Source: Nitrososphaerota archaeon
GTDB lineage: Archaea > Thermoproteota > Nitrososphaeria > Nitrososphaerales > Nitrosopumilaceae
Reading direction: 5' to 3'
Length of the DNA stretch: 60,086 nucleotides
Assembly: GCA_028866895.1 (NCBI GenBank)
Contig: JAGWHF010000009.1
Span: 1-60,086, forward strand
A program made the position numbers and the translations under genes. This document shows positions 11,758 to 30,080 of the stretch, one piece after another (positions within the stretch are counted from its first letter, which is position 1; each line of letters starts with the position of its first letter). The notes below the pieces were generated by a model. That model saw only the letters and a list, made by a program, of their open reading frames with translations. It had not been told where the DNA came from and ran no database searches.

Positions 11758-13812
11758 TTGCATATGTCAGTTCCAGATGATACTTCTTATGTAACATATA
11801 CATTCAACGTGCCTGTGGTTCCAACTTTTTTCTCATTACGACGTTTAAAGCCTCAAAATCATAAGACGAGATATGAGGGTTCAAGAGACATTAACGTAAT
11901 ATCATTTGTCCTATTTTTCATATTAATTTCTAATTTTGTTAATGTAGCGGACGCCAGTTTGGAAGAACACTACAATCAAGTATTGCATCAGCCAACCTAT
12001 GATTGTCATAACGGATCATGTATGCCAACAGGTTCAGTTCAGGGTGAACATCTGGCGACACAGACTGGATTATCACCTCCCCTTTCTCAACCCAATCCAT
12101 TAATTCCCATGACAGTCACAACTGATAAATCATCGTATTATGATGGAGACACAATCACTATATCCGGTACAACAAGAGATTATCTGGGCGATATGCCGAT
12201 TACAATTAACATAAGAAATCCAATTGGAAATGTAGTTAGTTTGGCTCAAATCTCGGTGCTACCAAACCACACCTTTTCGACCACAGTTACTGCTACAGGT
12301 CCTTTATGGCAAGATGCGGGAATGTATACGGTATATGCCCAGTATGGGGCCACAGACAGGTCTGCAGAAACAACTTTTCAATTATCAGCAGGAATATCAC
12401 ATGCATCTCAAACCGTTCAAGTAACAATTAGTTATGGAGCGAGCAATACCCGTGGAATTTGTACTTTCACAAGCTGCTTCGATCCAAACATAGTAAATAT
12501 CAAGGTAGGCGATGCTGTCACATGGACAAACGCAGACATTGTAGGACATACAGCAACAAGCGGCAGGCCATCAGATAACCAGACCGGCACTGTCTGGGAC
12601 AGCAGCCTGATTCCAGCTGGCAAATCCTATACGAGCCCACCTTTTACCACGCCAGGCACATACAACTATTTTTGTCAAGTTCACCCCTGGATGACAGGAG
12701 TGGTGATTGTAAGTGGTGCCCCTCTTACCTCAGGGATTCTGGATCCTACAATCACAACAGTATTGGCAAGTCAGACGACTTTAAACACTGGAGCCCCCAT
12801 AATCGTCACCGCTAACATCGTTGGAACCGCAAGCAACACAATTCCGACAGGTGCTGTGTCGTGGGGAGATGGGAGTGCTGGAGGCACATTCACATCTCAA
12901 TCATGTCAGGGAACAGAAAACTATCATACATGTACAGCAACCTATACTGCACCAAACACTCCTAGTAATATAGTCATAACCGCAAATTATTTGGGAGATA
13001 GCAATAACGCTCCAAGTTCTGGCTCAACAAACATCTCTGTCATTACCTCTCAATTCAATGGAGGAGGCAGCCCTAGTCCCACTATCCTGTTTATTGCAAT
13101 AGGCGTTGTAGCATTTGGCATAGCTTTATTCGCAATCAGCCATAATGTAGGAAAATCTCGAAACACTGTTACAGTTCGGCCAATTGATTCGGGGGAGAGA
13201 GGCAATTCAGGCGGAGGGGGACCAGCCAGAACGGAAGAGGTTTATCACGGGACCACTCCCCCCACATACATTACAGGTGATAGAGAGCCAAAACCTACTT
13301 CTGTTCTAAAACCAATCCCGCAAACACAGCCTGCAAAACCAAGATCGACAGCATCTGGTCCAACACATGGTACCCTACCTGCTGGGTTCAAACCAGTAGA
13401 TTCTTCTCTTGTCGAAAAAACCCGAATTCACGATGATCCCCTTTTAGGCGTACAAGCGGATTGGTTTTCCCTTGCAGAACAATCACCCGACGACTCCGTA
13501 ATTGTGAATGGAATAAAAATCCCTAAACTTGATTGTTATAGAAGAGCAGCAGAATCAAATCAAAACGAGCCTAAAATTTGGAAGAGTCTTGGTCTTTATC
13601 TCCGAAAAGACCAGACAGTTGAAATAAACAATAAGAAATTTTCAAAACGTGATTGTCTCCTTCATGCCATGAATTTAGGTCTGAAGGATGCCTATATTTG
13701 GGCTAGCCTTGGAGAATCGCTTGATAATGGTGAATCTGTATTTGTCGAGGGAAAAAGTATGACAGCGATTGATTGTTACCTAGAGGAAGCATTACTACTA
13801 TATCCGCAATAA
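11758..13812 (+). CDS. Membrane cupredoxin protein with cytoplasmic TPR-like tail
   Basis: About 684 residues. After a hydrophobic signal-like segment (INVISFVLFFILISNF, about 46-61) come an Ig-like domain, a plastocyanin-type cupredoxin domain (about 242-320) with type 1 copper ligands in order (GHTATSG His, then NYFCQVHPWMTG with Cys, His and Met), a second Ig-like domain, one transmembrane helix near 442-464, a low-complexity linker and a C-terminal tail of three repeats (LDCYRRAAESN, DCLLHAMNLG, IDCYLEEALLL) resembling SEL1/TPR units. The start is uncertain (TTG 11758 or ATG 11764). It is the first gene of the cassette with the Pup-ligase-like genes and ends in Pro-Gln. It could link an outside redox or metal sensor to the cytoplasmic system; that is inference. 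Confidence 0.7.
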   Translation: MHMSVPDDTSYVTYTFNVPVVPTFFSLRRLKPQNHKTRYEGSRDINVISFVLFFILISNFVNVADASLEEHYNQVLHQPTYDCHNGSCMPTGSVQGEHLATQTGLSPPLSQPNPLIPMTVTTDKSSYYDGDTITISGTTRDYLGDMPITINIRNPIGNVVSLAQISVLPNHTFSTTVTATGPLWQDAGMYTVYAQYGATDRSAETTFQLSAGISHASQTVQVTISYGASNTRGICTFTSCFDPNIVNIKVGDAVTWTNADIVGHTATSGRPSDNQTGTVWDSSLIPAGKSYTSPPFTTPGTYNYFCQVHPWMTGVVIVSGAPLTSGILDPTITTVLASQTTLNTGAPIIVTANIVGTASNTIPTGAVSWGDGSAGGTFTSQSCQGTENYHTCTATYTAPNTPSNIVITANYLGDSNNAPSSGSTNISVITSQFNGGGSPSPTILFIAIGVVAFGIALFAISHNVGKSRNTVTVRPIDSGERGNSGGGGPARTEEVYHGTTPPTYITGDREPKPTSVLKPIPQTQPAKPRSTASGPTHGTLPAGFKPVDSSLVEKTRIHDDPLLGVQADWFSLAEQSPDDSVIVNGIKIPKLDCYRRAAESNQNEPKIWKSLGLYLRKDQTVEINNKKFSKRDCLLHAMNLGLKDAYIWASLGESLDNGESVFVEGKSMTAIDCYLEEALLLYPQ

Positions 13813-14015: not shown

Positions 14016-15581
14016 GTGTTGAAACAAAAAACCCATCGTGAAGCGAATGGTGCCTTTAATCAATTCGTTCCTACTCGCATAGGCGGGCTTGAAACGGAAG
14101 TAGCGTTACAGGTTCCTCGTCTGACTAATGAATCAACTACAGAGTATCAGGCAAGGACGGTTAACCTTATCAAGAGATTTGTAGCCCTATACAAGGAAAA
14201 TAATGATATCAAATGGAGTTATCGGTATCCTGTTGAGCTCTGGAAATTTGATGCTGAAAACAGGATAGTCATGAATGGCTCGCGGCTTTACAGCGATCAT
14301 TATTACGTTGAGTATTCTACGGCCGAATGCGAAGATCCAAGAACCTTGATCGCAGTAGACCGCGCAGGAGAGCTAATTTTGGCGGATTTGCTAAGGCTGT
14401 TCCATGAAACTGTAAATAAAAAAGCGGTTTTGCTAAAGAACAATTTATCGTTTCTGTCTAGTATGAAACCTTTTACGTATTCATTTTCTTGCCATGAGGA
14501 TTACTCTGTATCCCCACATCTCTTTGATGCTATTTGCAATCAGAACTTTTCCATTCAGAGTGCCATTTGGCTAAGCTACCTTGCTACAAGGATCATCTTG
14601 ACAGGTGCCGGAAGGGTAGGACCAAGCCTTCCCCATGAATTTGCACCAATATATGGCAGACAGGCAATGATGCAATTAGCGGAGGAAAGTAACGGGAGTT
14701 TTGAATATCTCTCTGCAAGAATGAAACTTCTTCGAAGACAAATAAAAGACGTCAGCGTAGATTTTGGGTCCATTGTACCATTTGAAATTTCAGCTCGGTC
14801 GTCATCCATAACATGCCTACGCAGCCACGAAACCATGGAATTCAGACCTCTCATTAACCTTAGAGATGAGCCTCATGCAGATCCGTATTTTGTTAAGAGA
14901 TTACATGTTATAGTAGGAGATTCAAACAGGGCAGAACTTTCTACCTATCTAAAGTTTGGTTGCGCACAGCTGGTCTTGTTATTCTTAGAAACATCAATTC
15001 CTGAAAACCCCATTATTCTGGACAACCCCCTTCTAGCAATGAAGCTTATTTCACGGGATCCTACCCTTCAAACTTCAGTCCCAATCTTGAAAGGGGGAAG
15101 TATGAACGCCATACAATATCAATACTGGCTATGTGATGAGATTGAAGATACGTTAAACCAACAAAAACTACATTTACCGGCGTGGGGACCAGCAGTACTT
15201 CAAGAATGGAGGAAATCGTTAGATAATTTAGTAACGGATCCTTTAATGATGAGGGACAAATTAGATTGGGTTGCAAAATATGCACTACTAAAGGACCACT
15301 TTCCTACAGGTTTTGAGTCTACGAATCAAACCGCTATGAAGTTAGACTTGATTTATCACAAAATCGGACCAGACGATTATTACACTGAGCTTGTACATGC
15401 AGGAAAAATGATCAAAATAGTCAATGACGATATGGTAAATTCCTTTAAGACGACTCCCCCTCATACTCGTGCAAGGCGAAGGATGGAGATTATCAAAGAG
15501 GGGTCCATAAAAGAAGCTAACTGGAATTACTTGGTAAGAAAGGACGGCAAAGAGTTTTGGCTTCAAGATCCAGCAAACTGA
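14016..15581 (+). CDS. PafA/Dop-family Pup ligase- or deamidase-like protein 1
   Basis: A 521-residue protein with the ordered motifs of the PafA/Dop (glutamine-synthetase-like) family: GLETE (24-28) for ATP/Mg binding; NGSRLYSDHYYVEYSTAEC (87-105), matching the family consensus NGaRxYvDHaHPEYStPEc with catalytic-base Asp94; SCHEDY (158-163, consensus GCHENY); YLATRIILTGAGRVG; and the C-terminal small domain (DKLDWVAKYALL, LDLIYHKI, then PPHTRARRR). PafA ligates the Pup C-terminal glutamate to lysines; Dop deamidates Pup and removes it. All main motifs are intact, so activity is plausible. Which role it plays is undecided. Known pupylation is bacterial, so an archaeal copy beside a Gln-ended small protein is notable. 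Confidence 0.85.
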   Translation: MLKQKTHREANGAFNQFVPTRIGGLETEVALQVPRLTNESTTEYQARTVNLIKRFVALYKENNDIKWSYRYPVELWKFDAENRIVMNGSRLYSDHYYVEYSTAECEDPRTLIAVDRAGELILADLLRLFHETVNKKAVLLKNNLSFLSSMKPFTYSFSCHEDYSVSPHLFDAICNQNFSIQSAIWLSYLATRIILTGAGRVGPSLPHEFAPIYGRQAMMQLAEESNGSFEYLSARMKLLRRQIKDVSVDFGSIVPFEISARSSSITCLRSHETMEFRPLINLRDEPHADPYFVKRLHVIVGDSNRAELSTYLKFGCAQLVLLFLETSIPENPIILDNPLLAMKLISRDPTLQTSVPILKGGSMNAIQYQYWLCDEIEDTLNQQKLHLPAWGPAVLQEWRKSLDNLVTDPLMMRDKLDWVAKYALLKDHFPTGFESTNQTAMKLDLIYHKIGPDDYYTELVHAGKMIKIVNDDMVNSFKTTPPHTRARRRMEIIKEGSIKEANWNYLVRKDGKEFWLQDPAN

Positions 15582-15753
15582 AGATCGGTAAACAGCAACT
15601 TCCTCAACCATAGTCACTCATAGATATCCTACAGCTCAGATGCATTAGATCGTCAATAGTAGGTCCGACCATATGAGAAAAATGCGGGTGTTAGCACTTG
15701 AAAACGAGATGGCGTAGAGTATTGTTAAATATGTCTTCATCGTACTTCTACCT

Positions 15754-16164
15754 ATGGTGGATTACGAAGAAGACAAGAAAGATTCAGGAAAAGTAGAGAA
15801 GAAGTGGGAATCAAATCGTAAGAATTTGAGTCCTAATTTTGTAATAGAGAGCACGAAAGGAGACAAGAAGAATATTTACTATGGAAATCAAGGAGAAAGG
15901 GAATTCTTCGAGGGCGAAAAGAAACATAGAGGACATACAGTTATTGATACAAAAACACAAGAGATCAAGTATGCAAGAACGATGCGAGGAACCGAGATTT
16001 ATGATGATAGAGCGGGAGATGCGGGTGGGTCAAGTAATTCCTCTGGAGGTACACCTCCTCCATCAGGTGGTGACAAGACAGAAACTTCTAGTACAAGTGT
16101 TCCGGATTGGGCAAAGAGAAAGGTTGAATCGTGGGAAGGCCAAGGCGTTGGATCTGGACAATAA
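15754..16164 (+). CDS. Candidate Pup-like modifier protein ending Gly-Ser-Gly-Gln
   Basis: A 136-residue, hydrophilic, low-complexity protein. The N-terminal half is Lys/Glu/Asp-rich, the middle is Gly/Ser/Pro-rich, and the C-terminus is VESWEGQGVGSGQ. Bacterial Pup is a disordered 60-70 residue protein ending Gly-Gly-Gln (or Glu); Dop deamidates the Gln so that PafA can attach it to lysine. The terminal Gln, the flexible glycine tail and the location exactly between two PafA/Dop homologues make it the obvious modifier candidate. It is about twice the length of Pup and has Gly-Ser-Gly instead of Gly-Gly. GTTAAATA at 15724 lies about 27 bp before the ATG. Confidence 0.65.
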   Translation: MVDYEEDKKDSGKVEKKWESNRKNLSPNFVIESTKGDKKNIYYGNQGEREFFEGEKKHRGHTVIDTKTQEIKYARTMRGTEIYDDRAGDAGGSSNSSGGTPPPSGGDKTETSSTSVPDWAKRKVESWEGQGVGSGQ

Positions 16165-16178
16165 CCACTGATTAAATC

Positions 16179-18821
16179 TTGAAATCTATATTTCCAATTA
16201 TAGGGCTTGAAACCGAGTTTGCAGTATTATACAGCTTTCTTAGCGAAGACAAAAAGAACATAGCTCCAAAAGGATGGCAGCGTCAGTTCAACGAAACATT
16301 TTTTGATGAAGTAAAAAAGCAAGTTATATCTGTTCCAGGTGCTACCTTGGGCTCTGATTTCGAGGAAAACCCCACAGTTTTTTTCTTAGCAAACGGAGGG
16401 AAGCTCTATTTAGATTTTGGAAGACTAAATGAAATTAATCAAATAAGGCTTGCCAGAACGCATGAAAGTGGGTATCCTGAATGGGCAACCCCAGAGTGTG
16501 CTACGCCAGATGAAATTCGCGTTTATGAACAAGTTGGAACGCGGATTGTTGTAAAAGCATTTGAAGCTACAGTCAAGAATGCCCAAAGCCGTTGGGGTGA
16601 TGAATTTAAAGCTCATCTCCTAAAACAGAGTTTAGTATCTGGTGGTGGTCAGCGAGGTTGCCATGAAAACTATCAGATTTCCAAATCCCTATATGATGTC
16701 CTCATCAATCAAGACAACGATGTAGTGAAAAAATTCTGGCTACCATTTCTTGCTACAAGAACAATATTTTCAGGAAACGGGAACTTGACGAAAGAGGGAT
16801 TCCTCCTTTCACAAAGGTCATCCATAACCAACAGATATCTTCAATGCGTGGGATGCAATCTTCTTTACAACGATCCTAAACGAGGGGTATTAGATATACG
16901 AGCAGAACATTTTGGTGATTCTAGCTTGCGTAGACTCCAAATAATATGTGGCGACGTACTCTTGTCCCCTTATGCTACTTGGCTAAAAGTTGGTACGACG
17001 TGGATTGTTCTCGCCCTCTTTGAATACCTGAATTCCAATAATATCCATTTTCCAAACTTGGAAGTTGAATACAATAACATGGAATCTCTGTTTAATCGTG
17101 TGAATTCTGGTATGAGTAACAATGAAGATTTCATGTGGTCTATTGCAATCCAGAGATCTATTCTAGAAATGACTGAGAAATTTTTATCTAATATGAGCTT
17201 ACCTGAATCGGCCGAAGTTGTTCTAAAAGATTGGAATTCTATTCTGGATAATTTAGAAAAGGATTACATGAAACTTTCTAATGAGATCGATTGGATAGCA
17301 AAGTTAGAATTTTTGAAGAATTGTGGCTATCAGACTAGAGATGAAAATTTTCAATATTTGCAGGAAGTAAACCAAAAATTCCATATTATATGGCCTGAAG
17401 GTGCTGAAAATACCAAAAATTGGGATAAGCAAGTTGATTGGCAAAAATACAAATCGATTCCACCGGATGTGCCAAGGGCAAAACTGCGATCTAAAATTAT
17501 AAAAAACACTCATGAAAAACACTCGACTCCTCTCATCACTTGGAATCTGGTAGAATACCCTGATTCAAAAGATTCCTTGTACATTGACGTCATGCCCGAT
17601 CCTAATTCAGAGTTTCCTATCAGGATAGATCCAAATACTGTTAGCACTGGACAACTCCCTGTTGAAGTAGAAGTTACATATGCAATGTTTCTTCAAACAG
17701 TTGCACAAAAGAGCAAGGAAAGATCTAGAATTGATTCTCTAACCACGGAAATAATGAATCGCATTTCTACTAACTACACCGTTATCTCTGAAGAATTACC
17801 TGATCCAAAATCAAGATTATTTATTGAAATGAGTAATTTTGTGCCTAAAAATTATATCATATCTGCCATAAAAAAACAAGTGGATCCGGAATGGAAGAAG
17901 ATGCACAACTTCAAATGTAGGGGAGCGGATGCAGCTAGTTTGATAAAACCCCTAATCGACACAAATGATAGAGTAGAAAAGTCAATAGCCTCAACTTTAT
18001 TAAATATCGTTGATTCATTATTGAAAGAACGGCAACAGCTAGGTGATGAGTCTACTCGTGTAAGTTTGATTGAGGATCGTGAAATGTTAATTTGGAAAAT
18101 AGGCAGCGGCAACCTTGTAAACGAAATTCACTCCACACTTGATTTGCTCTCTTCCATATCCAATACCGTCTCAAATTCAAAAGAAAATTATAGTACCAGC
18201 GAGAAAAAAAATATTGAAATTGCCATAAGGAGAACAATAAATAGGTTTAACGATGAAATTGTCATACTACTTTGGATAGATCCTAGTTGGGATGAGGAAA
18301 TGCGCAAAAAAGGTTGGGATAAAGATGCTTATCGAGAAGCACAAAGGTTAGAATACTACAGGCAAGCTCACAGAATTGTAGAAAAGATCGTCTATCTCTT
18401 ACCTGAAGATCCTGAATCATGGTACCTTAAGGGAATAATCAACCTTAAGCAAAAAAATTATGAAGATGCCAGCTACGCGTTTACCAAGTCACTAGAAAAG
18501 ATTGTTCAAAATTTGCTTGTTAAGCAAAAGGATATTCAGGATAAGATTAACGAAATAAAAGAATTTGAGAAATCTTCAGGAATGCTATTCTTATCGAACT
18601 ATCATACTTTGCAAAACGAGCTGAAGGTATTTTATTCCGAAATTAAGAAATTTCTAGATAATTCATCTAAATTAAATGACCATCTGATTGCGCTCGACGC
18701 TAAAGCCTTTCGTGATTTGCGATTAGCTCGATCTTTAGATAAAAACATGGACACTGAACGAATCATTCTTGAAGCATATGATCTCTCAGCTAGAGAAAAC
18801 AACATTAAACCACTTAATTAA
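16179..18821 (+). CDS. PafA/Dop-family protein 2 fused to large C-terminal region with TPR
   Basis: An 880-residue protein starting at TTG, 14 bp after the small modifier candidate, so probably co-transcribed. The N-terminal half (about 1-450) is PafA/Dop: GLETEFAV (9-16), NGGKLYLD (72-79), then after an extra ~20 residues GYPEWATPEC (98-107), GCHENY (160-165), FLATRTIFSGNGN, IDWIAKLEFL and PPDVPRAKLR. The Asp and the Pro-Glu motif, adjacent in PafA, are separated by an insertion. The second half (450-880) has no PafA counterpart; near 715-770 it contains a TPR-like pair (PEDPESWYLKGIINLKQKNY), and helical segments follow. It may be the partner enzyme (Dop-like) with a substrate-binding arm. 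Confidence 0.8.
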   Translation: MKSIFPIIGLETEFAVLYSFLSEDKKNIAPKGWQRQFNETFFDEVKKQVISVPGATLGSDFEENPTVFFLANGGKLYLDFGRLNEINQIRLARTHESGYPEWATPECATPDEIRVYEQVGTRIVVKAFEATVKNAQSRWGDEFKAHLLKQSLVSGGGQRGCHENYQISKSLYDVLINQDNDVVKKFWLPFLATRTIFSGNGNLTKEGFLLSQRSSITNRYLQCVGCNLLYNDPKRGVLDIRAEHFGDSSLRRLQIICGDVLLSPYATWLKVGTTWIVLALFEYLNSNNIHFPNLEVEYNNMESLFNRVNSGMSNNEDFMWSIAIQRSILEMTEKFLSNMSLPESAEVVLKDWNSILDNLEKDYMKLSNEIDWIAKLEFLKNCGYQTRDENFQYLQEVNQKFHIIWPEGAENTKNWDKQVDWQKYKSIPPDVPRAKLRSKIIKNTHEKHSTPLITWNLVEYPDSKDSLYIDVMPDPNSEFPIRIDPNTVSTGQLPVEVEVTYAMFLQTVAQKSKERSRIDSLTTEIMNRISTNYTVISEELPDPKSRLFIEMSNFVPKNYIISAIKKQVDPEWKKMHNFKCRGADAASLIKPLIDTNDRVEKSIASTLLNIVDSLLKERQQLGDESTRVSLIEDREMLIWKIGSGNLVNEIHSTLDLLSSISNTVSNSKENYSTSEKKNIEIAIRRTINRFNDEIVILLWIDPSWDEEMRKKGWDKDAYREAQRLEYYRQAHRIVEKIVYLLPEDPESWYLKGIINLKQKNYEDASYAFTKSLEKIVQNLLVKQKDIQDKINEIKEFEKSSGMLFLSNYHTLQNELKVFYSEIKKFLDNSSKLNDHLIALDAKAFRDLRLARSLDKNMDTERIILEAYDLSARENNIKPLN

Positions 18822-19248: not shown

Positions 19249-19836
19249 CTATAGTTGTCGTTGCCAATCCTTAATTGAAAGTTTAGCCCTGTCAGATTCA
19301 TCATCATGTAGTTCAACATTATGTGCAACTACAGCTCTGATCTGATTTAATTGTGACAAGATTTGTCTCACTGCTTTTCTGCTTCTAAATTGATCTGAAA
19401 AATCACTCCAATTGTGTTCTATTATGGGCAATAGCTCCCCTAAGGTAACGTAAAGAAGAGGATCATCTAATGATCTAATGGTCATGACAGAGTCTTTTTC
19501 TTTCTCTTGTCTCTCTTTGACTTCTTTTTTAATGATATCTGGAATTCGATTTTCCCACCAATCGACACCATATTTTTCTAACAATGTTTGTTTCACCAAT
19601 TTCCTAACAGTGTTTTCGAAACAATAAAACATTACATAATAATCTGACATTCTTTTTGCACTTTGTCTGATATCCGTATCAAATAAATCTGGATCAACAA
19701 TTTCTTTTTTTGAGGTTGTGGAAATATGTCCAATCTCAATACCTGATTCTTCAATCTTTTTTAGATCATCTTCAAGTTGTAGATTTCTCATTCCAAAATC
19801 ACGTAGCTGTGCTGATAATGGAAAATTTTCACTCAT
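19249..19836 (-). CDS. Swt1-type HEPN domain protein
   Basis: A 195-residue protein resembling the Swt1/HEPN family. An all-helical C-terminal part holds FENTVRKLVKQTLLEKYGV-WWENRIP, a DPLLYVTLGEL segment, and the HEPN nuclease signature Arg-x4-His (Arg167-AVVA-His172, NQIRAVVAHNVEL). HEPN proteins are often metal-independent ribonucleases in defence and toxin-antitoxin systems. It follows the DUF5343 gene with an 8-bp overlap, so the two are translationally coupled and probably act together. Confidence 0.75.
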   Translation of the reverse strand: MSENFPLSAQLRDFGMRNLQLEDDLKKIEESGIEIGHISTTSKKEIVDPDLFDTDIRQSAKRMSDYYVMFYCFENTVRKLVKQTLLEKYGVDWWENRIPDIIKKEVKERQEKEKDSVMTIRSLDDPLLYVTLGELLPIIEHNWSDFSDQFRSRKAVRQILSQLNQIRAVVAHNVELHDDESDRAKLSIKDWQRQL

Positions 19837-20449
19837 TGAGAATATGTTCCTTTAGACTCTTGAAAATTGCGTTAAAAACTTCAACGTCTGGAGTAGCGGG
19901 CAAGTTAAGATTTATTGTATATGATATGCCTAATTTAGATAATAATGTTGGTTTTTGTTTCTCTTCTTCCTTTGGTTTGCCTTCCTCTTTCTCTTTAACT
20001 TTCTCTGTTGCCTTCGCGCTAAAATCCGCAAGTTTTGCTAACTCCATAAAAGTACCAACGATCTGAAGTACAGTGGAATTATTTTCTGGCAAGCCTGTTA
20101 TTGTTTTGACTTTTGCAGTTAATTCTTCTTTAGACAGCTTATCAGCAAATTCGTTAGCTTGAAAAATTTTCTCATATGATTGTTTTATGCATTTTGCCAT
20201 TACAAATTTTGCCGAAGCTGGATCTCTATAGTCTTTGTAGTCTTGTGTGGGAATATTAGATGCATCCAAAAACCCGATCTTCTTGAGAAATGGAATCATG
20301 GGAAAATAATTTGATGACCTCAAGTCAAGCATCGTTTTCATAAATTCATGGGTAAATTTTGTTGGTACAGCGGCCTCTTGTATTTTAGCAAATAAATTAG
20401 ATAATTGAGCATAGCTACCAACATAAGGCATATTCTCTACCATAAACAA
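19829..20449 (-). CDS. DUF5343-like protein, partner of HEPN
   Basis: A 206-residue protein with the traits I associate with DUF5343: an N-terminal YVGSYAQLSNLFAKIQEAAV segment, SSNYFPMIPFLKKIGFLD, then GLP and a C-terminal strand pair ISYTINLNLPATPDVEVFNA followed by IFKSLKEHIL. The N-terminal region looks like a winged helix. Between them lies a Lys/Glu-rich linker. It is the upstream gene of a two-gene minus-strand unit with a HEPN protein, and may be its regulator, antitoxin or sensor. Confidence 0.7.
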   Translation of the reverse strand: MFMVENMPYVGSYAQLSNLFAKIQEAAVPTKFTHEFMKTMLDLRSSNYFPMIPFLKKIGFLDASNIPTQDYKDYRDPASAKFVMAKCIKQSYEKIFQANEFADKLSKEELTAKVKTITGLPENNSTVLQIVGTFMELAKLADFSAKATEKVKEKEEGKPKEEEKQKPTLLSKLGISYTINLNLPATPDVEVFNAIFKSLKEHILNE

Positions 20450-20639
20450 TGGAATAATACTAGACCATAAAAACAGATCTGACGGTAATTATCATATACC
20501 CTTGATATTTCCCTCGAATATGGGAATTTATGCAAAGTGGTAATGATCCCTAATTTGACAACGATTGAAAATGCAAGATTGTCTCGTGTCTTTCACGATC
20601 GTGTTTTTAATCTCCTATTACATGAAAACAAAGGGGTTT

Positions 20640-22178
20640 ATGAAGAAAGGAAACGGTATGAATGGTGCAAACCTGGGGTTTGAACAGAAACTCTGGCTGG
20701 CAGCTGACAAACTAAGGAGCAACATGGACGCTGCAGAATACAAACATGTTGTACTAGGCCTGATTTTTCTAAAATACATCTCTGATGCATTCAATGAAGT
20801 TTATGAAAAACTAAGAAAAGATCCGACCTCTGATTCTGAGGATGTAGACGAGTATATCTCGAGGAGGGTCTTCTGGGTTCCAAAAAAGTCAAGATGGGAG
20901 TATCTGGCAAACAGTGCAAAGAAACCTGAAATCGGCACGATAATCGACGAGGCAATGGATGCCATAGAAAAAGATAACCCTTCCCTAAGGGGAGTTCTTC
21001 AGAAAAACTATGCAAGACCTGCTTTGAACAAGCAGAGACTTGGCGAGCTAATTGATCTGATCGGCACAATAGGCTTGGGCGACAAAGACAGCAGGAGCAA
21101 GGACATTCTTGGAAGGGTTTACGAATATTTTTTGGGACAGTTTGCAGATGCAGAAGGAAAAAAAGGAGGCCAGTTCTACACACCTCGAAGCATTGTCAAG
21201 CTGCTAGTAGCCATGCTTGAGCCATACAAGGGAAGAATCTTTGATCCTTGCTGCGGTTCCGGTGGAATGTTTGTGCAATCAGAAAAATTCATTGAAGCAC
21301 ATGGTGGAAAAATCGGCGACATTTCAGTTTACGGCCAGGAAAGCAACCAGACCACATGGCGCCTCTGCAAGATGAACCTTGCGATAAGGGGAATTGATGC
21401 AAATGTGGAATGGGGCGATTCTTTCCGGGACGACCAGTTCAAGGACTTGAGAGCAGATTTCATTCTTGCAAATCCCCCCTTCAACGACAGTGATTGGGGA
21501 GGAGAATTATTACAAGATGATGTAAGATGGAAATTTGGAACTCCTCCTAAAGGCAATGCGAACTTTGCTTGGGTTCAAAACTTTATTCATCATCTCTCTC
21601 CTACTGGCATGGCTGGATTTGTTTTAGCAAATGGTTCCATGTCCTCTAATACATCTGGTGAGGGAGACATACGCAAAAACATAATCGAAGATGATCTGGT
21701 TGACTGCATGGTTGCCCTGCCCGGTCAACTGTTCTACAATACAATGATTCCCGCATGTCTTTGGTTTGTTTCAAGGGACAAGAAAAACCACAAGTTCAGA
21801 GACAGAAGAGGCCATGTCCTTTTCATTGATACCAGAAAAATGGGAGTTTTGGTTGATAGAAGGCATAAGGAACTAACAGATGAGGACATCAAGAGAATCT
21901 CAGATACCTATCATTCTTGGAGAGGAGAGCTAAAAGACAAAAAGTATCGGGATATTTCCGGATTTTGTAAATCTGCCCCTTTGGAAGAAATAAGAAAACA
22001 TGAATGGATTCTCACACCGGGGAGATATGTCGGAGCAGAAGAGGAAGAAGACGTAGAAGAAGAATTTGAAAAAACTATTAAACGCTTGACAATTAAACTT
22101 TCGGAACAAATGAAAAGAGAACAAAATCTGAATGATGAAATTAAAAAAAATTTGCAACAGATTGGATTTGAGATGTAA
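20640..22178 (+). CDS. hsdM: Type I restriction-modification methyltransferase subunit
   Basis: About 512 residues from ATG 20640; ATG 20622 is an alternative and the upstream hydrophobic extension looks noncoding. The helical N-terminal domain ([20 protein letters not shown]) is typical of HsdM. Methyltransferase motif I is [12 protein letters not shown] and motif IV is ILANPPFND, as in N6-adenine methylases. The C-terminus is a coiled coil that would contact HsdS. It is the first gene of an hsdM-hsdS-hsdR operon with 3-4 bp gaps, and it modifies host DNA so that HsdR does not cut it. Confidence 0.95.
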
Positions 22179-22181
22179 AAT

Positions 22182-23411
22182 ATGGTGAATATGTCTAGCT
22201 GGGAAATGATTCGTCTCGGAGACCTTGTCTCTATCAAACATGGGTGGCCATTTAAGACAGAATTCATTTCTGAAGATCTCACTGGAAGGCCAATTGTAGT
22301 GAACATTGGAAATTTTCGATATACTGGAGGTTTTAGATTTGACGATACAAAAGTGAGAGAATATCGTGGTGACTATCCACCTGAGTATAATCTATGTGCA
22401 GGCGATATATTACTGGTCATGACATGCCAGACCAGTGAAGGTGAGATACTTGGAATACCTGCTCGTGTCCCCGATGATGGCAGGACTTACCTTCATAATC
22501 AAAGGTTAGGAAAGGTAATTGTTATTCATCCTGAAAAAGTACGATCTGATTTTCTATATTGTCTTTTTTTGTATCCTGAGTTCAACAGATGGCTTTTCAC
22601 ATCTTCATCAGGAACTAAGATTCTACATACAGCTCCAAAACGCATTGAAAGCTTTGAATTTAATTTGCCTCCATTAAATGAGCAACGGGAAATCGCAAAA
22701 ATTCTTTGGGATCTCGATTCCAAAATCGAACTCAACCAACAAATGAACAAAACCCTTGAAGCTATAGGTCATGCAATCTTCAAGCACTGGTTCATCAACT
22801 TTGAGTTTCCAAATGAGGAAGGCAAGCCGTACAAATCCTCGGGTGGAGAGATGGTTGATTCTGATTTGGAAAAAATTCCAAAGGAATGGAAGTATGGGAA
22901 ATATTCTGATTTAGTAGAAATAACAACAGGTAAAGGACTTAAACGAGAAGAATTCGTAGAAAATGGTAAGTTTCCCGTAATGGGAGCTAACGGAGAATTG
23001 GGAAGAACTGATAATTTTCTTTTTGATGAAAATTTAATCTTAACAGGCAGAGTTGGAACCCTTGGCACCGTATACGTTGTTAGAGATAAAGTTTGGATTT
23101 CAGATAATGTCCTAATCTCAAAGGCAAAATCAAATGAGTTCTTTTATTACTCGTATTATACTCTAAGAAATTTTGAATTTGAATCATTAAACAGAGGAAG
23201 TACACAGCCTCTCATAACTCAAACAGATTTGAAAAATCAGACTTGTTTAATTCCCAATCATACAATTTTAGTTTTGTTTAATAAAATATTATCATCCGTA
23301 TTAAATAAAATATATGATAACAATTTTCAAAATAAAAATCTGTCACAAATACGTAATTTGTTATTACCCAAACTTATGTCTGGGAAAATCAGAGTTCCGG
23401 TAGAGGCCTGA
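22182..23411 (+). CDS. hsdS: Type I restriction-modification specificity subunit
   Basis: A 409-residue protein with two target-recognition domains separated by conserved helices. The first is 1 to about 165; a central spacer helix follows ([20 protein letters not shown], then [20 protein letters not shown]). The second is about 220-370, starting with [17 protein letters not shown], and the C-terminal helix ends [13 protein letters not shown]. The two domains read the two halves of a bipartite DNA site. It lies 3 bp after hsdM and 4 bp before hsdR. Confidence 0.95.
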
Positions 23412-23415
23412 CAAT

Positions 23416-26400
23416 ATGCCAAAAGCTATACACGAATCAGATGTTGAAGAGAATGTTCTTGATAGTCTCAAAGATCTTGGCTACGGTATAATCAGAGGTG
23501 ATAACGAAGATTATCAACCTGAAGGGAAATATGCCCTAAGAGACGATTACAAGGATGTTGTTCTTGTCGAAAGACTCAGAACTACACTAAAGGAGATCAA
23601 TCCTTCCATTCCAGAAGAGGCAAGGGAGCAGGCAATAAAACAGATTCTAAGAAGCGAAAGTCAGAGGCTAATCGTTGACAACGAAAACTTTCACAAGCTA
23701 CTAGTCGATGGAATAGATGTCCCAATCCAGACAAAGGACGGAGAAAGGCACGAAAAGGTCTGGCTGTTTAATTTCAAGGATCCAAAACGTAACGATTACT
23801 TGGCAGTAAACCAGTTCACGGTACAGGAAAACAACGTAGAACGAAGACCCGACGTTGTGATTTTTGTCAACGGAATACCACTGCTTATCTTTGAGCTTAA
23901 AAACCTGGCAGACGAGAACGCAACGATTGATGATGCATACCACCAATTCCAGACATACAAGGACCAACTGCCGACACTCTTCAGATTCAACGAGATTCTT
24001 GTAATTAGTGACGGACTCAAGGCACAGGCAGGAACCATCTCATCCGAGAGGGAGAGGTTCATGCAATGGAAGACAATCAACGGAGAAAAACCACGAAAGG
24101 GGCTCAACGAGATCGAGGTCCTTCTCAGAGGAATGTGTGACAGGTCGATATTCCTAGACATTGTAAGAAACTATATCGTCTTTGAAAAGGACACAGAGAC
24201 ATTAAAGAAGCTTGCGGCATACCACCAGTACTGGGCCGCAAACAAGGCTGTAAAATCCACACTAAAGGCAAGAAGAGGAAGCAAAAAGGCTGGTATCGTC
24301 TGGCACACCCAAGGATCAGGAAAATCCCTGACCATGATTTTTTATGCAGGAAAGCTTGTCAGAGAAATGGACAACCCTACCATAGTAGTTCTGACAGACA
24401 GAAACGATCTTGATGATCAATTATTTGGAACCTTCGGAAGGTGTCAGGACATTCTACGGCAGAAACCGACACAGGCAGAATCAAGAAAGGAACTACAGGA
24501 AAAGCTCAAGGTCTCATCGGGCGGTATCGTGTTTACCACAATTCAGAAATTCTTTCCGGAAGAGAACCGGGAAAAATATCCGATGCTATCCGAAAGAGAC
24601 AACATTGTGGTAATCGCAGATGAAGCCCACAGAAGCCAATACGGATTTTCCGCAAAGATATTGAGCAGAAAGGACAAGACACTGATAACCTATGGTTATG
24701 CCAAATATCTAAGGGACGCCTTGCCAAAAGCGTCATTCATCGGGTTTACTGGAACGCCGATAGAAAAGTCGGACAGATCCACACCAGCAGTCTTTGGAGA
24801 ATATATTGACAAATACGACATAGAGCAGGCAGTAGAGGACGGGGCAACTGTTAGAATCTATTATGACAGCAGGCTTGCAAAACTGGAACTCAAGCCAGAG
24901 GAGAGGCCAAAGATAGACAAGGAATTCGAGGAGGTAACAGAAGGAGAAGAAATCGAAGGAAAGGAAAAACTGAAGAGCAAATGGGCAAGGGTAGAAAAAG
25001 TAGTAGGTGCTTCAACCAGGATCAGAAAAATTGCACAAGACATTGTGAATCATTTTGAAGAGAGACTGAAGAGCTTGGAGGGCAAGGGGATGATCGTATG
25101 CATGTCAAGGAGGATATGCTACGATCTGCACAACGAGATAGTAAAACTCAGGCCAGAGTGGTACAACAAGGAAGACGAGAAGGGATTCGTCAAGGTTGTA
25201 ATGACAGGTTCCGCATCTGACCCAAAGGACTGGCAGGAACATATACGAAACAAAATCAAAAGGAAGAAGATCGGTGACAACTTCAAGGATCCAAGACATG
25301 AGCTGAAACTTATCATAGTAAGGGACATGTTCCTGACAGGGTACGATGCGCCTTCGCTTCACACGATGTATCTTGACAAGCCGATAAAGGGCCACACGCT
25401 CATGCAGGCAATAGCGAGGGTAAACCGCGTCTACCCCGGAAAGGTCGGAGGTCTTGTAGTGGATTATATGGGAGTAGGTGCGGAACTAAAAAAGGCACTA
25501 GTTGACTATACAGAAAGTGGCGGAAGGGGCAAGCCGACATTTGACCAAGACAAGGCAGTAATGCTGACGCTGGAAAAATACGAAATCGTCAAGGACATGT
25601 TCCACGGATTCAATTACAAGAAATTTTTTGAGCTGGAATCAGGCAAAAGGATAACTTTTGTTCCAGACGCAATGGAACACATCTTAAAGGAAAAGGGCAG
25701 AAAGGAAAGATTCCAGAAAGAAACCACTGCGTTACTGAAGGCGTTCTCTCTTGCAGTGCCACGTCCAGAGGTTATGAAGATAAAAGAAGAGATCGGTTTC
25801 TTTCAGGCTATAAAATCAGCAATAGTAAAAACAACTGAAACCGGCAAGGAAGGACAGGAAGAAAAGTTCGACACGGCAATCAAGCAGATAATTTCCAAAG
25901 CCGTGATATCGGACAGGATAATTGACATCTTCGAGGCTGCAGGAATTCAAAAACCCGATGTATCCATACTATCAGAGAACTTTTTAGCGGAGGTAAAGGG
26001 GATGCCGCAAAAGAACTTGGCGTTTGAGGCGCTCAAAAAACTGCTAAATGACGAGATCAGAATCTTTGCAAAAAGGAACATAATTCAGGGCAAGTCGTTC
26101 ATGGATCTTCTTGACAAGACCATCAAGAAGTACACTAACAGGAGCATAGAGGCGGCCCAAGTCATTGAAGAACTGATAGAACTTGCAAGAAAGGTCAGGG
26201 AAAAGAAAAACAGAGGGGTGCAGCAAAACATGACAGAAGACGAGCTTGCATTTTATGACGCTCTGGAAGTAAATGACAGCGCCGTCAAGGTTCTTGGAGA
26301 CGGAACGCTAAGAAAGATTGCTTTGGAGCTGACGGAGATGATACGAAAGAGTGTCACTATAGACTGGACTCAAAGGGAGAGTGTTCAGGCTGAAATACGT

Positions 26401-26538
26401 CTAAAGGTTAAGAAGATCTTGAGAAAACACGGTTATCCTCCAGACAAACAAGAAAAAGCTACTCAAACTGTTTTGGCTCAAGCAGAGGTGATAGCAAAGG
26501 ATTGGGCAGAAAGCACTGTTACAAAGATTTTGGAATAG
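23416..26538 (+). CDS. hsdR: Type I restriction endonuclease, motor subunit
   Basis: A 1040-residue protein. The N-terminal PD-(D/E)xK nuclease has [19 protein letters not shown]. The superfamily 2 translocase has Walker [15 protein letters not shown] box [20 protein letters not shown], and later motifs V-VI ([22 protein letters not shown]). The C-terminal helical domain binds the methyltransferase. It has full length and no disruptions, so the restriction system is probably active against incoming DNA lacking the host methylation. Confidence 0.95.
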
Positions 26539-26657: not shown

Positions 26658-27176
26658 TTACGGAAAGGGCAAATACGCTCTTCCAATAGATATTATGATT
26701 AAGACCGCAAAGATTCCTAAAAATATCAACGGCACCGCTTTTTCTACATCTGTAAGTGGCTTATACAATGATTTATTTTTTCCCTCCCCCAGAATTTTCC
26801 ATTCTATTCCATGCAGTGATAACGGAAGTCTTTTTTCAATTTCTGTGATGATTTTCCATTTTCCACTACTGAGCTGCCTGTAGGATTTTACCGTCCTCAA
26901 CCATGTATAACTAAAAAGAATCCCACTGATTGATCCTACAATAACCCACCCACTATTGGTCGTAATAGTTGTTACCAGATTAAACAGAACGCCCAATGCT
27001 GTAAGCAATCCTGTGCTTATACTCAGAAAAAAACTGTTGGCCGTGGCACGGCGTTCGTTCAAGCTGTCTATCATCTTCAGGTATATCCTATACTGTTCAA
27101 ATAACCATTCTTCACCTTTCTCTCCAAGTTCTTTTGTAGAATTGAAAAGTTTGCTTAATTCCTCTTGTTCGTTCAT
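26658..27176 (-). CDS. RipA-like membrane protein paired with TIR protein
   Basis: A 172-residue membrane protein. An N-terminal helix (GEKGEEWLFEQYRIYLKMID) is followed by RRATANSFFLSISTGLLTAL, a second membrane helix (VIVGSISGILFSYTWL), a cytoplasmic stretch and a third helix (VPLIFLGIFAVLIIISI). The ANSFFLS start of the first helix and overall size fit what I recall of the RipA-family octameric membrane proteins that sit next to TIR-like proteins. It lies 7 bp after the TIR-like gene on the same strand, so it likely acts with it. The name is by resemblance. Confidence 0.65.
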   Translation of the reverse strand: MNEQEELSKLFNSTKELGEKGEEWLFEQYRIYLKMIDSLNERRATANSFFLSISTGLLTALGVLFNLVTTITTNSGWVIVGSISGILFSYTWLRTVKSYRQLSSGKWKIITEIEKRLPLSLHGIEWKILGEGKNKSLYKPLTDVEKAVPLIFLGIFAVLIIISIGRAYLPFP

Positions 27177-27183
27177 GTCTTAT

Positions 27184-27669
27184 CTATTGCAATTCATCGC
27201 CAAGTTGATCCGCTTTCCAGTCAATGATTTTATCTCCATACTCAGTTAGTGCCCGTGGGACTTTATGATTTTCGTCTTTATGTAGCCTCATTCCAATCAC
27301 TTTTTTGCCCTGTCTGTGTGCTTCCCTAATTTCCCAGTCCACCGCTTCGCTGTCTGCGGTAGTTTCACCTATTGCCACAATCACCACAGATGTTAGTGCT
27401 ATGATCTCTTTGCATTGAGTCTTCCATGCCTCGTCGAAAGGCTCTTTGATTGAATAGTCTCTGAATTGAAAATCAAATCTGTCATCTTTTGCCTGAGAAC
27501 GTAGTAGATTTACTTGCGCCTCATCTTCCACTGCGAAGCTGATGAAAACATTCCTCTGAACTCGTGACTGTGTGGCTCTTTCAGCTTCATCAGTAGCTGA
27601 TCGAAAAATCTTTTCTCCTGTATCGGAGCCACGTGAAGAAAAATCAATACTGCCTCCAGGTCCGCCCAT
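27184..27669 (-). CDS. TIR-like (MTH538/ThsB-type) protein
   Basis: A 161-residue protein. After a disordered Gly/Ser-rich 38-residue start, RNVFISFAVEDEAQVNLLRS matches strand A and the first helix of MTH538/ThsB TIR-like domains; FRDYSIKEPFDEAW and VVIVAIGETTADSEAVDWEI follow, with Glu113 (DWEI) at the usual catalytic Glu position, then a GKKVIGMRLH strand. TIR enzymes make signals from, or degrade, NAD in defence. Its own TATA (CCCTTAATAC, about 27699-27708) sits in the 52-bp gap after the QueC-like gene. It is followed by a RipA-like membrane gene. Confidence 0.75.
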   Translation of the reverse strand: MGGPGGSIDFSSRGSDTGEKIFRSATDEAERATQSRVQRNVFISFAVEDEAQVNLLRSQAKDDRFDFQFRDYSIKEPFDEAWKTQCKEIIALTSVVIVAIGETTADSEAVDWEIREAHRQGKKVIGMRLHKDENHKVPRALTEYGDKIIDWKADQLGDELQ

Positions 27670-27721
27670 ATCGTATCAGTTTAGGGGGAGAGGATTATCG
27701 TATTAAGGGTTATTGGACTAA

Positions 27722-28315
27722 TCAAGTTTGTATTTTTTCTATCGTTTGCCTTTCTTTGCAGCTCATGCATTTTCCACAAGGATCTGGTGAACCTATATGA
27801 CAAGAATATGTTATTTCCAATGGAAAATTGTATTTCCTTGCTAGTTCAATAACCTCACGTTTATTCAGATCTATTAACGGTGTGAGGATTTTGATTTGTT
27901 CTTGGATTGCAATGTTGAGAGTTGTCTCTGAGCTTTTCATGAACTCTTTAGTTTGATCCGGGAAAATGGAATTTGATAGCGAACCTATTGAAATTACTTT
28001 GATTGATTTAGTATGTGCATAAATGGAAGCAATAGTTAGAAGCAAGAGGTTTCTTGCTGGAAAAAACGGACTATCACTGTAGGATAAATCGGGCTTTGTC
28101 AGCCCTATGGATAGTTTTCCTATATTCGAGATATCTATGACCTCGGGTTTGATTTTCAGAAATTCGCAGATTTTGTAGAAGGACTTTTGCTCCATCATTG
28201 CGGCTTTTTGGCCGTAGTTGATGTGTAATGGAAAAACTTCATGCCTCATCCTCTTTAGCATGAGCATGAGTACACTGGAATCGATGCCGCCCGATGCTAG
28301 GCATATCACTTTCAT
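27722..28315 (-). CDS. QueC-like 7-cyano-7-deazaguanine synthase (Cap9-like)
   Basis: A 197-residue PP-loop ATPase. SGGIDSS (8-14) is the ATP-binding loop; YGQKAAMMEQKS, PARNLLLLTIASIYA and PLIDLNKREVIELA are QueC blocks; the zinc site CHIGSPDPCGKCMSCKE gives Cys172, 180, 183 and 186. QueC makes preQ0 from carboxydeazaguanine. It overlaps the OGG-like gene by 4 bp and sits with a TGT-like gene, the exact trio of accessory genes in type IV CBASS (Cap9, Cap10, Cap11). It is somewhat shorter than typical QueC (about 220). The role could be nucleobase-protein or DNA modification. Confidence 0.85.
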   Translation of the reverse strand: MKVICLASGGIDSSVLMLMLKRMRHEVFPLHINYGQKAAMMEQKSFYKICEFLKIKPEVIDISNIGKLSIGLTKPDLSYSDSPFFPARNLLLLTIASIYAHTKSIKVISIGSLSNSIFPDQTKEFMKSSETTLNIAIQEQIKILTPLIDLNKREVIELARKYNFPLEITYSCHIGSPDPCGKCMSCKERQTIEKIQT

Positions 28316-29040
28316 AATTCTTTATTTCGCATGTAGTGCCAAACCGCTAGATCAAACAATGCCAAATTAAACCCATGGTACTCTGCAAAATTTCTGAGAG
28401 TTTTTTCCAACCTTAGATATCTTTGCAAAGTCAGCGAAGAGTTTGTATCAAAATCAACAAGGGAAAATTCCTTTAGAAATGTCAAGACGTGCACATCGAT
28501 AATTGCCAATGAATTGGTAAATCCTATGTTACGGAGAAAGTGCGACGCTTCCTTTATCCCGAGACCAGATATTTGATTTACAAAGAAATTTCTTGCCTCT
28601 AAATCAGAAGTCATATTGGAAAGTACGCTCTTTATGGAATTACCTCTATACAGTGCTTTTGCTGCTCCCACGATTTCAGCAGAACGCTTCTTTGGGTAGC
28701 GATATTTTCTCAACTCACCATTCTTTTTTCTTGGATCAAAATTCGGTTTATCTAACTCGTGGAAAAGTGTAATTCTGGATTTGTTGTCTTCCATCATCCA
28801 TTTGTAATCAAGATAACCTCTTTCTGTTAATACGTCTACAACTGACTTTGCAAGCTCATAGGCCACATTACCAGACAGTATGCAAAAGCAAAGTTCCCTC
28901 CAAAGATGTTCTTCTGAGGCGTTAATCCAGTCTAGCCGATTTTTGTGGTCTTTCTCTAGTTGGTAGTAGATGTCTAAAATCGGACTAGGAACAAAAGTAT
29001 CGCTGATCTGACTTGTAGTCAAAACTTGCAAGTTGTTCAA
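28312..29040 (-). CDS. OGG-like HhH-GPD DNA glycosylase (Cap11-like)
   Basis: A 242-residue helical protein starting at TTG. The helix-hairpin-helix is SGLGIKEASHFLRNIGF with catalytic Lys163, followed by AIIDVHVLTFL with Asp182, the Lys/Asp pair of N-glycosylase/lyases of the archaeal Ogg2 type. The N-terminal WRELCFCILSGN also fits that family. These enzymes cut the glycosidic bond of damaged bases. Genetic coupling to QueC- and TGT-like genes (4-bp overlap and 32-bp gap) suggests a substrate other than 8-oxoguanine, such as a deazaguanine base. Confidence 0.8.
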   Translation of the reverse strand: MNNLQVLTTSQISDTFVPSPILDIYYQLEKDHKNRLDWINASEEHLWRELCFCILSGNVAYELAKSVVDVLTERGYLDYKWMMEDNKSRITLFHELDKPNFDPRKKNGELRKYRYPKKRSAEIVGAAKALYRGNSIKSVLSNMTSDLEARNFFVNQISGLGIKEASHFLRNIGFTNSLAIIDVHVLTFLKEFSLVDFDTNSSLTLQRYLRLEKTLRNFAEYHGFNLALFDLAVWHYMRNKEL

Positions 29041-29072
29041 GATATCCTTTCCGTTGCTACTATTCTAAACCA

Positions 29073-30080
29073 TTAAAAAAAGTTGACGATTTTAGAAACT
29101 GTCTTCTGATCCACATACCTTTTCAAGAAATTCAACTCATCTTTGAGGATTATGGATTGCTGCAACTCCAAGACAAAATCCTGATAAAATAACAGATTGT
29201 GCAGTATGGCACGCAGTATTGGATCCATATTCTTCATTCTACAAACCCTGCACATGCAGTCAGTAATGGAAAGATTGGCAAAATCAGTAAAGCCCAGTGA
29301 CCTCAAATCCACCACCCACCTTGACCAGTCTATGCTGTCGAAGATATCAGCTCCTGCCATTGCAAACAGCGCCATGGACAGCGGATTGCCACAACCTAGG
29401 ATGTGTAACACATTTTCCTCTTTATCGTTATCAAGGATATTTCGGATTTTTTGCACTGTCTTTATTTTATCATGTAACGTTTTTCCGCAGCTTCGCTCCG
29501 GAATTGCGATTACCTGACATAATTCGGAGTTATTCAGAGATAGTTTCTTGACCAGTTTCTGAAGCTGTTCTGGGGATTGTCCATGACAGATTGTAATGCA
29601 GTGATTGTCTTTCATTAATTTGCTAGAGTCCTTTGCATTTTGATGCGTAAGCCTCAGTATGTCTAAGTAATCTGAATGTGAATCAGGAATATTGTCAAAG
29701 CTTGTAAAGAAATCAGATTTTATTTTGTCAATTATGGCTCTATATTTTTTAAAATTCCATCTTCTGTCACGGAACCAATAACTTTCGAAGCTACCACTAT
29801 CTATCAACAAAAAATTATTTTCTTTTGAGAACTTACCTAACATTCTAGAAATGCGGTTGTAGTTCTCCCTTGAAAGACCAGCTAAATCGTACGCCGAAAC
29901 AAGCAATCGTGGATAACCACTTCTTACGATAGACTGTACCAATGGTTCAAGAGGTAATCTGGTAGCCACACTGGAAATGGATGGGAAATATGTTGGAGTA
30001 ACTAGTCGCTTTTTATCGATTTCAATCTGAAGAACCCTTGATTTGTACGATCCTCTATGCAGAATTTTTGTGTAGAGCAT
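29073..30080 (-). CDS. TGT-like transglycosylase (Cap10/DpdA-like)
   Basis: A 335-residue TIM-barrel-type transglycosylase related to tRNA-guanine transglycosylase. LLIDSGSFESYW carries Asp94 (general acid/base position); GCGNPLSMALFAMAGAD and FDSIDW follow with Asp248/251 at the nucleophile area; the zinc site is CMCRVC plus His294 (Cys275/277/280). Single-domain size without PUA fits DpdA- or Cap10-like rather than archaeosine TGT. It leads a minus-strand trio with OGG-like and QueC-like genes. It may exchange guanine for a deazaguanine in DNA, or act in the type IV CBASS-like modification chemistry. Confidence 0.8.
   Translation of the reverse strand: MLYTKILHRGSYKSRVLQIEIDKKRLVTPTYFPSISSVATRLPLEPLVQSIVRSGYPRLLVSAYDLAGLSRENYNRISRMLGKFSKENNFLLIDSGSFESYWFRDRRWNFKKYRAIIDKIKSDFFTSFDNIPDSHSDYLDILRLTHQNAKDSSKLMKDNHCITICHGQSPEQLQKLVKKLSLNNSELCQVIAIPERSCGKTLHDKIKTVQKIRNILDNDKEENVLHILGCGNPLSMALFAMAGADIFDSIDWSRWVVDLRSLGFTDFANLSITDCMCRVCRMKNMDPILRAILHNLLFYQDFVLELQQSIILKDELNFLKRYVDQKTVSKIVNFF

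Follow-up and report, generated by a model that had tools for sequence, protein, structure and literature searches.

A Candidate Pup-like Protein-Conjugation Module on an Archaeal Mobile Element

The stretch of DNA analyzed here, hereafter the window, comprises the first 60,086 bases of the 90,403-base contig JAGWHF010000009.1 from a Nitrososphaerota archaeon and carries three co-directional genes, A, B, and C, in an order matching dop-pup-pafA. Genes A and C encode enzymes of the Pup_ligase superfamily (PF03136), and gene B, situated between them and ending 14 bp before C, encodes a Lys-rich protein with a C-terminal Gln. The trio probably constitutes a self-contained Pup-like protein-conjugation module that resides on an archaeal mobile element and is not linked to a proteasome. 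An earlier reading, made from the sequence without database searches (the sequence-only reading), had described a deamidase-modifier-ligase layout, which is upheld, the roles of A as deamidase and of C as ligase being drawn from gene order, one tree, and the fold. All three reading frames are open, and gene C as a whole (16179–18821) encodes 880 amino acids (aa) from a TTG start. The features are as follows.

14016–15581, plus strand: gene A, Dop-like enzyme of 521 aa with a GTG start (PF03136; domain from about 14076)
15754–16164, plus strand: gene B, candidate Pup-like modifier of 136 aa with an ATG start and the C-terminus GVGSGQ (open reading frame and codon use)
16150–16161, plus strand: codons for the last four residues of B, Gly-Ser-Gly-Gln, where deamidation and conjugation would presumably take place (read directly; [GS]G[QE] end shared with Pup and with the divergent small reading frames of loci L029, L060, L089, L091, and L103)
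16179–17603, plus strand: gene C, residues 1–475, PafA/Dop-fold domain, presumed ligase (PF03136 and structural model)
17604–18821, plus strand: gene C, residues 476–880, helical extension, presumed target- or partner-binding part (weak TPR matches and helices modeled at low confidence)

Two Enzymes of the Pup Ligase Superfamily

The Pfam profile PF03136 (cut-off 25 bits) matched A with an E-value of 2.2e-86 (291 bits over 485 residues) and C with an E-value of 8.9e-51 (173.7 bits, residues 7–456), values that place the family match far beyond chance. The ordered PafA/Dop motifs that the sequence-only reading had recognized in both large proteins are present in A and C. Both are unambiguous members of the superfamily, and neither belongs to the Dop or the PafA equivalog: with the NCBIfam profiles, A scored 216.5 bits for Dop (TIGR03688; cut-off 492.3) and 209 for PafA (TIGR03686), while C scored 118.7 bits for PafA (cut-off 551.3) and 111 for Dop, all four below the cut-offs.

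Structural comparison leads to the same family. Dop and PafA were the sole solved structures matched by sequence for A and C, with A aligning to the Dop structure 4b0r at an E-value of 1.5e-46. An AlphaFold2 (AF2) model of C, built from a 13-sequence alignment, matched the PafA-Pup complex 4bjr with an E-value of 4e-23. With VIA-align, the model of C gave Z scores of 35.1 to Dop (5lrt) and 32.7 to PafA (4bjr), within a range of 29.8–35.1 for Dop and PafA entries, and the next-best fold, which is GCS-like, reached 19.8; the PafA/Dop relationship put forward for structure prediction is thus borne out for C. Placement with ordinary glutamine synthetases or GCS, singled out beforehand as the outcome to watch for, did not occur in the profile searches, which returned PF03136 instead, and such an identity is ruled out for both proteins by this profile, the structures matched by sequence, and the modeled fold of C.

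Residues assigned to Mg2+ binding or catalysis in AcelDop comprise E8, E10, Y92, D94, E99, H155, R227, and H241 (PMC8599861). All eight are kept in A, and the equivalent of the catalytic Asp94 is present in both A and C. Beyond the shared domain, C possesses a helical and partly TPR-like extension of roughly 400 aa that was absent from the sequence-only reading. Its TPR matches are weak and below cut-off (around residues 745–773), its helices appear in the model at low pLDDT (predicted local distance difference test), and no extension of this kind was found in the other proteins compared.

The Middle Protein

As the sequence-only reading had it, a Gln-ended, Lys-rich protein lies between the two enzymes. 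The product of gene B is rich in Lys (16 residues), Glu, Gly, and Ser, and the gene codes in its own frame only, with a codon log-odds of +0.03 vs −0.27 to −0.63 in the other five frames. Two features of Pup recur in B, namely the C-terminal G[EQ] (GSGQ) and a gene adjoining members of the PafA/Dop family. An end of the form [GS]G[QE] was present in just three of 524 unrelated open reading frames (ORFs) of at least 100 aa in the loci retrieved, two of the three being one gene, and is therefore rare by chance.

A single-sequence AF2 model of B, of low confidence (pLDDT 51), displays an N-terminal helix and five strands at residues 29–76, followed by a disordered tail; the sequence after residue 76 is a Gly/Ser/Pro-rich linker and tail. 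B may perhaps carry a small β domain, as modeled. No fold match to this model was obtained, and no credible relative of B was found in the PDB or among 250 genomes of the family. If the trio works as proposed, B would be Pup-like in its working, while its length and its lack of a profile match place it outside the Pup family proper.

Bacterial Counterparts and Descent

With the N-terminal halves of A and C and that of one archaeal homologue as queries, 84,980 species genomes yielded 17 loci. In the best of these, from a Parcubacteria metagenome-assembled genome (L029), an AAA ATPase gene is followed by one for a Dop-like enzyme, by an 80-aa ORF with the end QESGQ, and by one for a PafA-like enzyme, the same arrangement as in A-B-C and in Actinobacteria (L004). 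PF03136 genes occur in 16 of the 188 sampled genomes of the same Parcubacteria class, mostly as two to eight paralogues per genome and in a few as a single gene, and small charged ORFs ending GGE, GGQ, SGE, or SGQ lie near the enzymes in many of these loci.

These small ORFs also bear on how the silence of the Pup profile toward B is to be read. Classical small ORFs with the ending YVQ[KR]GGE (n = 3) match Pfam Pup, which misses the divergent ones of L029, L089, L091, and L103. PF05639 fails for five bacterial ORFs at Dop/PafA loci ending SG[QE] or GGQ, and for one ending NAE. Given that divergent bacterial modifiers ending SG[QE] escape the profile as well, the failure of PF05639 for B tells only weakly against a Pup-like role.

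In a 62-row mixture-model tree, A grouped with twelve Parcubacterial proteins that occupy the Dop position, inside the Dop clade (support 98/93), and the archaeal homologues formed a group separate from A. C was a long branch without a resolved place. A is likely Dop-like and of bacterial descent.

Other loci recovered in this work are recorded here in their own right. Divergent Pup-like loci occur in the Parcubacteria genomes G753, G829, G857, and others (L029, L089–L108), and L091 also has two genes resembling proteasome subunits. In an Armatimonadota genome (Chthonomonadaceae H1_ARM1; L060:9655–11336), a 61-aa ORF with the end RQRSGQ, likely a divergent Pup, comes immediately after a Dop-like gene. 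The locus L004 (MT835496.1), deposited as "Bacteriophage sp.", is an actinobacterial ARC-Dop-Pup-PafA chromosomal piece and probably misnamed as phage.

Occurrence in Archaea

PF03136 is rare in archaea. In the host genome, A and C are the only PF03136 genes, and none was found in the rest of the 250 family genomes; a scan of genomes for C alone gave no match. No second copy of the trio emerged when genomes of the family (250), class (400), phylum (398), and order (400) were searched. Phage, plasmid, and IMG/VR sequences held no viral or mobile relatives, the lone "phage" match being the actinobacterial chromosome piece described above. In the literature, of which subscription papers and preprints were thinly covered, no mention of Pup systems in archaea or in candidate phyla radiation (CPR) bacteria was found.

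Two further archaeal occurrences were observed. A Thermoproteota family (f27; L020–L027) possesses a conserved chromosomal pair of PF03136 genes beside pyruvate:ferredoxin-oxidoreductase-like genes, and Nitrososphaeria archaeon QQ_bin.110111 (G189; L028/L045:412–3172) has an ARC-like AAA ATPase gene overlapping a single PF03136 gene. No [GS]G[QE] ORF was seen near either. The sequence-only reading had named homologous loci lacking a Gln-ended protein as a point that would speak against it, and on this the result is divided without refuting it: a small [GS]G[QE] ORF does lie near the Dop-like enzymes in Parcubacteria and Armatimonadota, and the archaeal f27 pair has none but belongs to a different branch.

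Mobile Element and Neighboring Genes

The archaeal and mobile setting described by the sequence-only reading holds on both counts. A regulator gene located on the contig 11 kb past the window has relatives of 62–64% in genomes of the same genus, which identifies the contig as archaeal and rejects a contaminant contig as its source. The window carries integrase genes together with VirB4-like, TrbL-like, PrgI-like, and secretion ATPase genes, a combination that shows a conjugative element. No close relative of the VirB4 of the element was found in the other 36 genomes of the genus, and comparing the left part of the window with the remainder of the contig revealed no exact att repeats of at least 16 bp.

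The trio has the integrase side on one flank and a row of defense genes on the other, and this placement is the sole pointer to a role in defense. The row begins with a HEPN_Swt1 and DUF5343 pair (19249–20449) matching the PADLOC candidate defense system PDC-M34A/B, next to which is a type I restriction system (20565–26538). Genes for an 8xMP membrane protein, a ThsB-like TIR protein, and QueC-like, OGG-HhH, and TGT-like proteins lie at 26658–30080, possibly a 7-deazaguanine-linked or Thoeris-like defense system. Directly upstream of A, positions 11758–13812 encode a membrane protein that combines a plastocyanin-like domain with a soluble, repeat-like C-terminus.

Proposed Working and Alternatives

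Dop deamidates the C-terminal Gln of Pup and cleaves Pup conjugates, and PafA phosphorylates the resulting Pup-Glu and joins Pup to lysine. From this knowledge of the family, a working for the trio can be proposed in which A would deamidate the terminal Gln of B to Glu, C would phosphorylate the γ-carboxylate of this Glu with ATP and join the activated B to a target lysine, and A would later cleave the B conjugates. The helical extension of C would pick the targets. More tentatively, the module may have been acquired from bacteria possessing divergent, Parcubacteria-like Pup systems, and the tag may change how proteins of the host, of phages, or of rival elements act, or what becomes of them in the host proteasome. 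With no ARC/Mpa found in the element, degradation would need host ATPases, and a signal that does not lead to degradation is no less likely. A bolder version, in which the trio is a mobile weapon or shield, with C as a target-specific ligase, its helical extension acting as the reader, attaching B as a folded domain to viral or rival-element proteins inside an archaeon and A reversing the attachment, is possible but doubtful. If true, no earlier example of pupylation-type conjugation would be known from Archaea or from a mobile element.

A number of observations weigh against a Pup-like conjugation module. The chemistry of A, B, and C is itself inferred, from sequence and predicted fold. B, at 136 aa, exceeds the 50–90 residues of described Pup (Iyer et al. 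2008, PMC2588565), matches nothing in Pfam, Pup (PF05639) included, even at an E-value of 1, and in its low-confidence single-sequence model shows no sign of the C-terminal helix pair that Pup, disordered when free, forms on binding. The trio is known from one locus, so that the C-terminal Gln of B is seen in a single sequence.

In the enzymes, C keeps seven of the eight AcelDop active-site residues, with Gln in place of H241, and has AEHF where the DEPH motif would stand. The Dop-loop is a 40–65 residue insertion before strand 2 (PMC8599861), and the E10–Y92 spacer that covers this region is short in A, at 64 residues vs 72–119 in most Dop-like proteins (one has 50). The spacer of C is also 64 residues, vs 33–64 in PafA-like proteins, so that a shared value lying between the two ranges does not assign the Dop and PafA roles. 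These departures, along with an insertion of about 50 aa in A, would fit a degraded or repurposed Pup system in which A and C bind B in a binding or sensor complex and one or both are inactive. We regard this as improbable, since both enzymes retain the catalytic Asp and the remaining Mg/ATP residues, many family members of the comparison set also have Gln at position 241, and all three frames are intact.

Phylogenetic uncertainty bears on a further alternative. In approximately unbiased (AU) tests, run on sets smaller than 62 rows, neither a grouping of A with the archaeal homologues (p 0.135–0.145) nor a sister relationship of A and C (p 0.156) was rejected, which leaves the Dop-like bacterial descent of A likely and short of proven. 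A and C might be PF03136 enzymes of another function, such as γ-glutamyl ligation onto a small molecule or peptide, next to an unrelated B whose Gly-Gln end arose by chance. The long branches of A and C, either of which the AU tests permit with the archaeal homologues, lend this some weight, as do the f27 pairs without a [GS]G[QE] ORF and the single QQ_bin.110111 enzyme beside an ARC-like ATPase. It is nevertheless unlikely, because B lies between A and C on the same strand, close to the start of C, with the expected end at the low chance frequency given above, and because the tree favors A within the Dop clade, whose members are accompanied by Pup-like ORFs in bacteria.

The last point against a Pup-like module is that no ARC/Mpa or proteasome gene was found among the window ORFs scanned. 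For these ORFs the sequence-only statement that no proteasome subunit is nearby stands; elsewhere, the host genome has five proteasome genes (PF00227), two of them adjacent as an α/β-like pair (C22:43490–44658, L134). Whether the module serves a dedicated second proteasome, formed by this extra pair, was considered and rejected as highly improbable. Five subunits are usual, occurring in most of the 37 genus genomes searched, many of which have a similar adjacent pair; the pair is unlinked to the trio, and PF03136 occurs in none of the other genus genomes.

Comparison with Known Systems

Descriptions of Pup conjugation come from Actinobacteria and a small number of other bacterial lineages, where it serves mainly to mark proteins for the bacterial proteasome (PMC2588565, PMC3511204). 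The proposed module shares with the actinobacterial Mpa/ARC-Dop-Pup-PafA locus two PF03136 enzymes around a small Gly-Gln-ended protein, in the same order and on the same strand, with active sites kept. It differs in having no ARC/Mpa or proteasome genes found with it, in its archaeal host and mobile element, in a modifier that is twice as long and unrecognized by profile, and in the 400-aa extension of C.

The closest counterparts of the trio are bacterial, from Parcubacteria and Armatimonadota. In the Parcubacterial loci (L029, L089, L091, L095, L099, L100, L102, and L103), divergent Dop-like enzymes likewise occur with small charged ORFs whose ends are SGQ, SGE, GGQ, or GGE; unlike the trio, these loci have an adjoining ARC/CDC48-like ATPase, modifiers of 60–83 aa, and, in L091, apparent proteasome subunits. 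With divergent Pup-like candidates mostly missed by the Pup profile, Parcubacteria and Armatimonadota merit attention. The f27 pair and the QQ_bin.110111 gene are, like A and C, archaeal PF03136 enzymes, yet they form a separate branch in the 62-row tree, with no Pup-like ORF nearby and no mobile element seen.

A precedent for a proteasome-free Pup module is provided by Plesiocystis and Rhodopirellula, whose genes for Pup and its ligase have no proteasome genes linked to them (Iyer et al. 2008, PMC2588565). Their ligases possess four transmembrane segments and are encoded beside a membrane protein, whereas C instead has a soluble helical extension. The trio would offer a compact system for the study of Pup tagging without degradation and of ligase target specificity. 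A complete-looking set on an archaeal conjugative element would represent a third setting for Pup chemistry, apart from an ATPase and protease of its own and in a cell with an archaeal proteasome.

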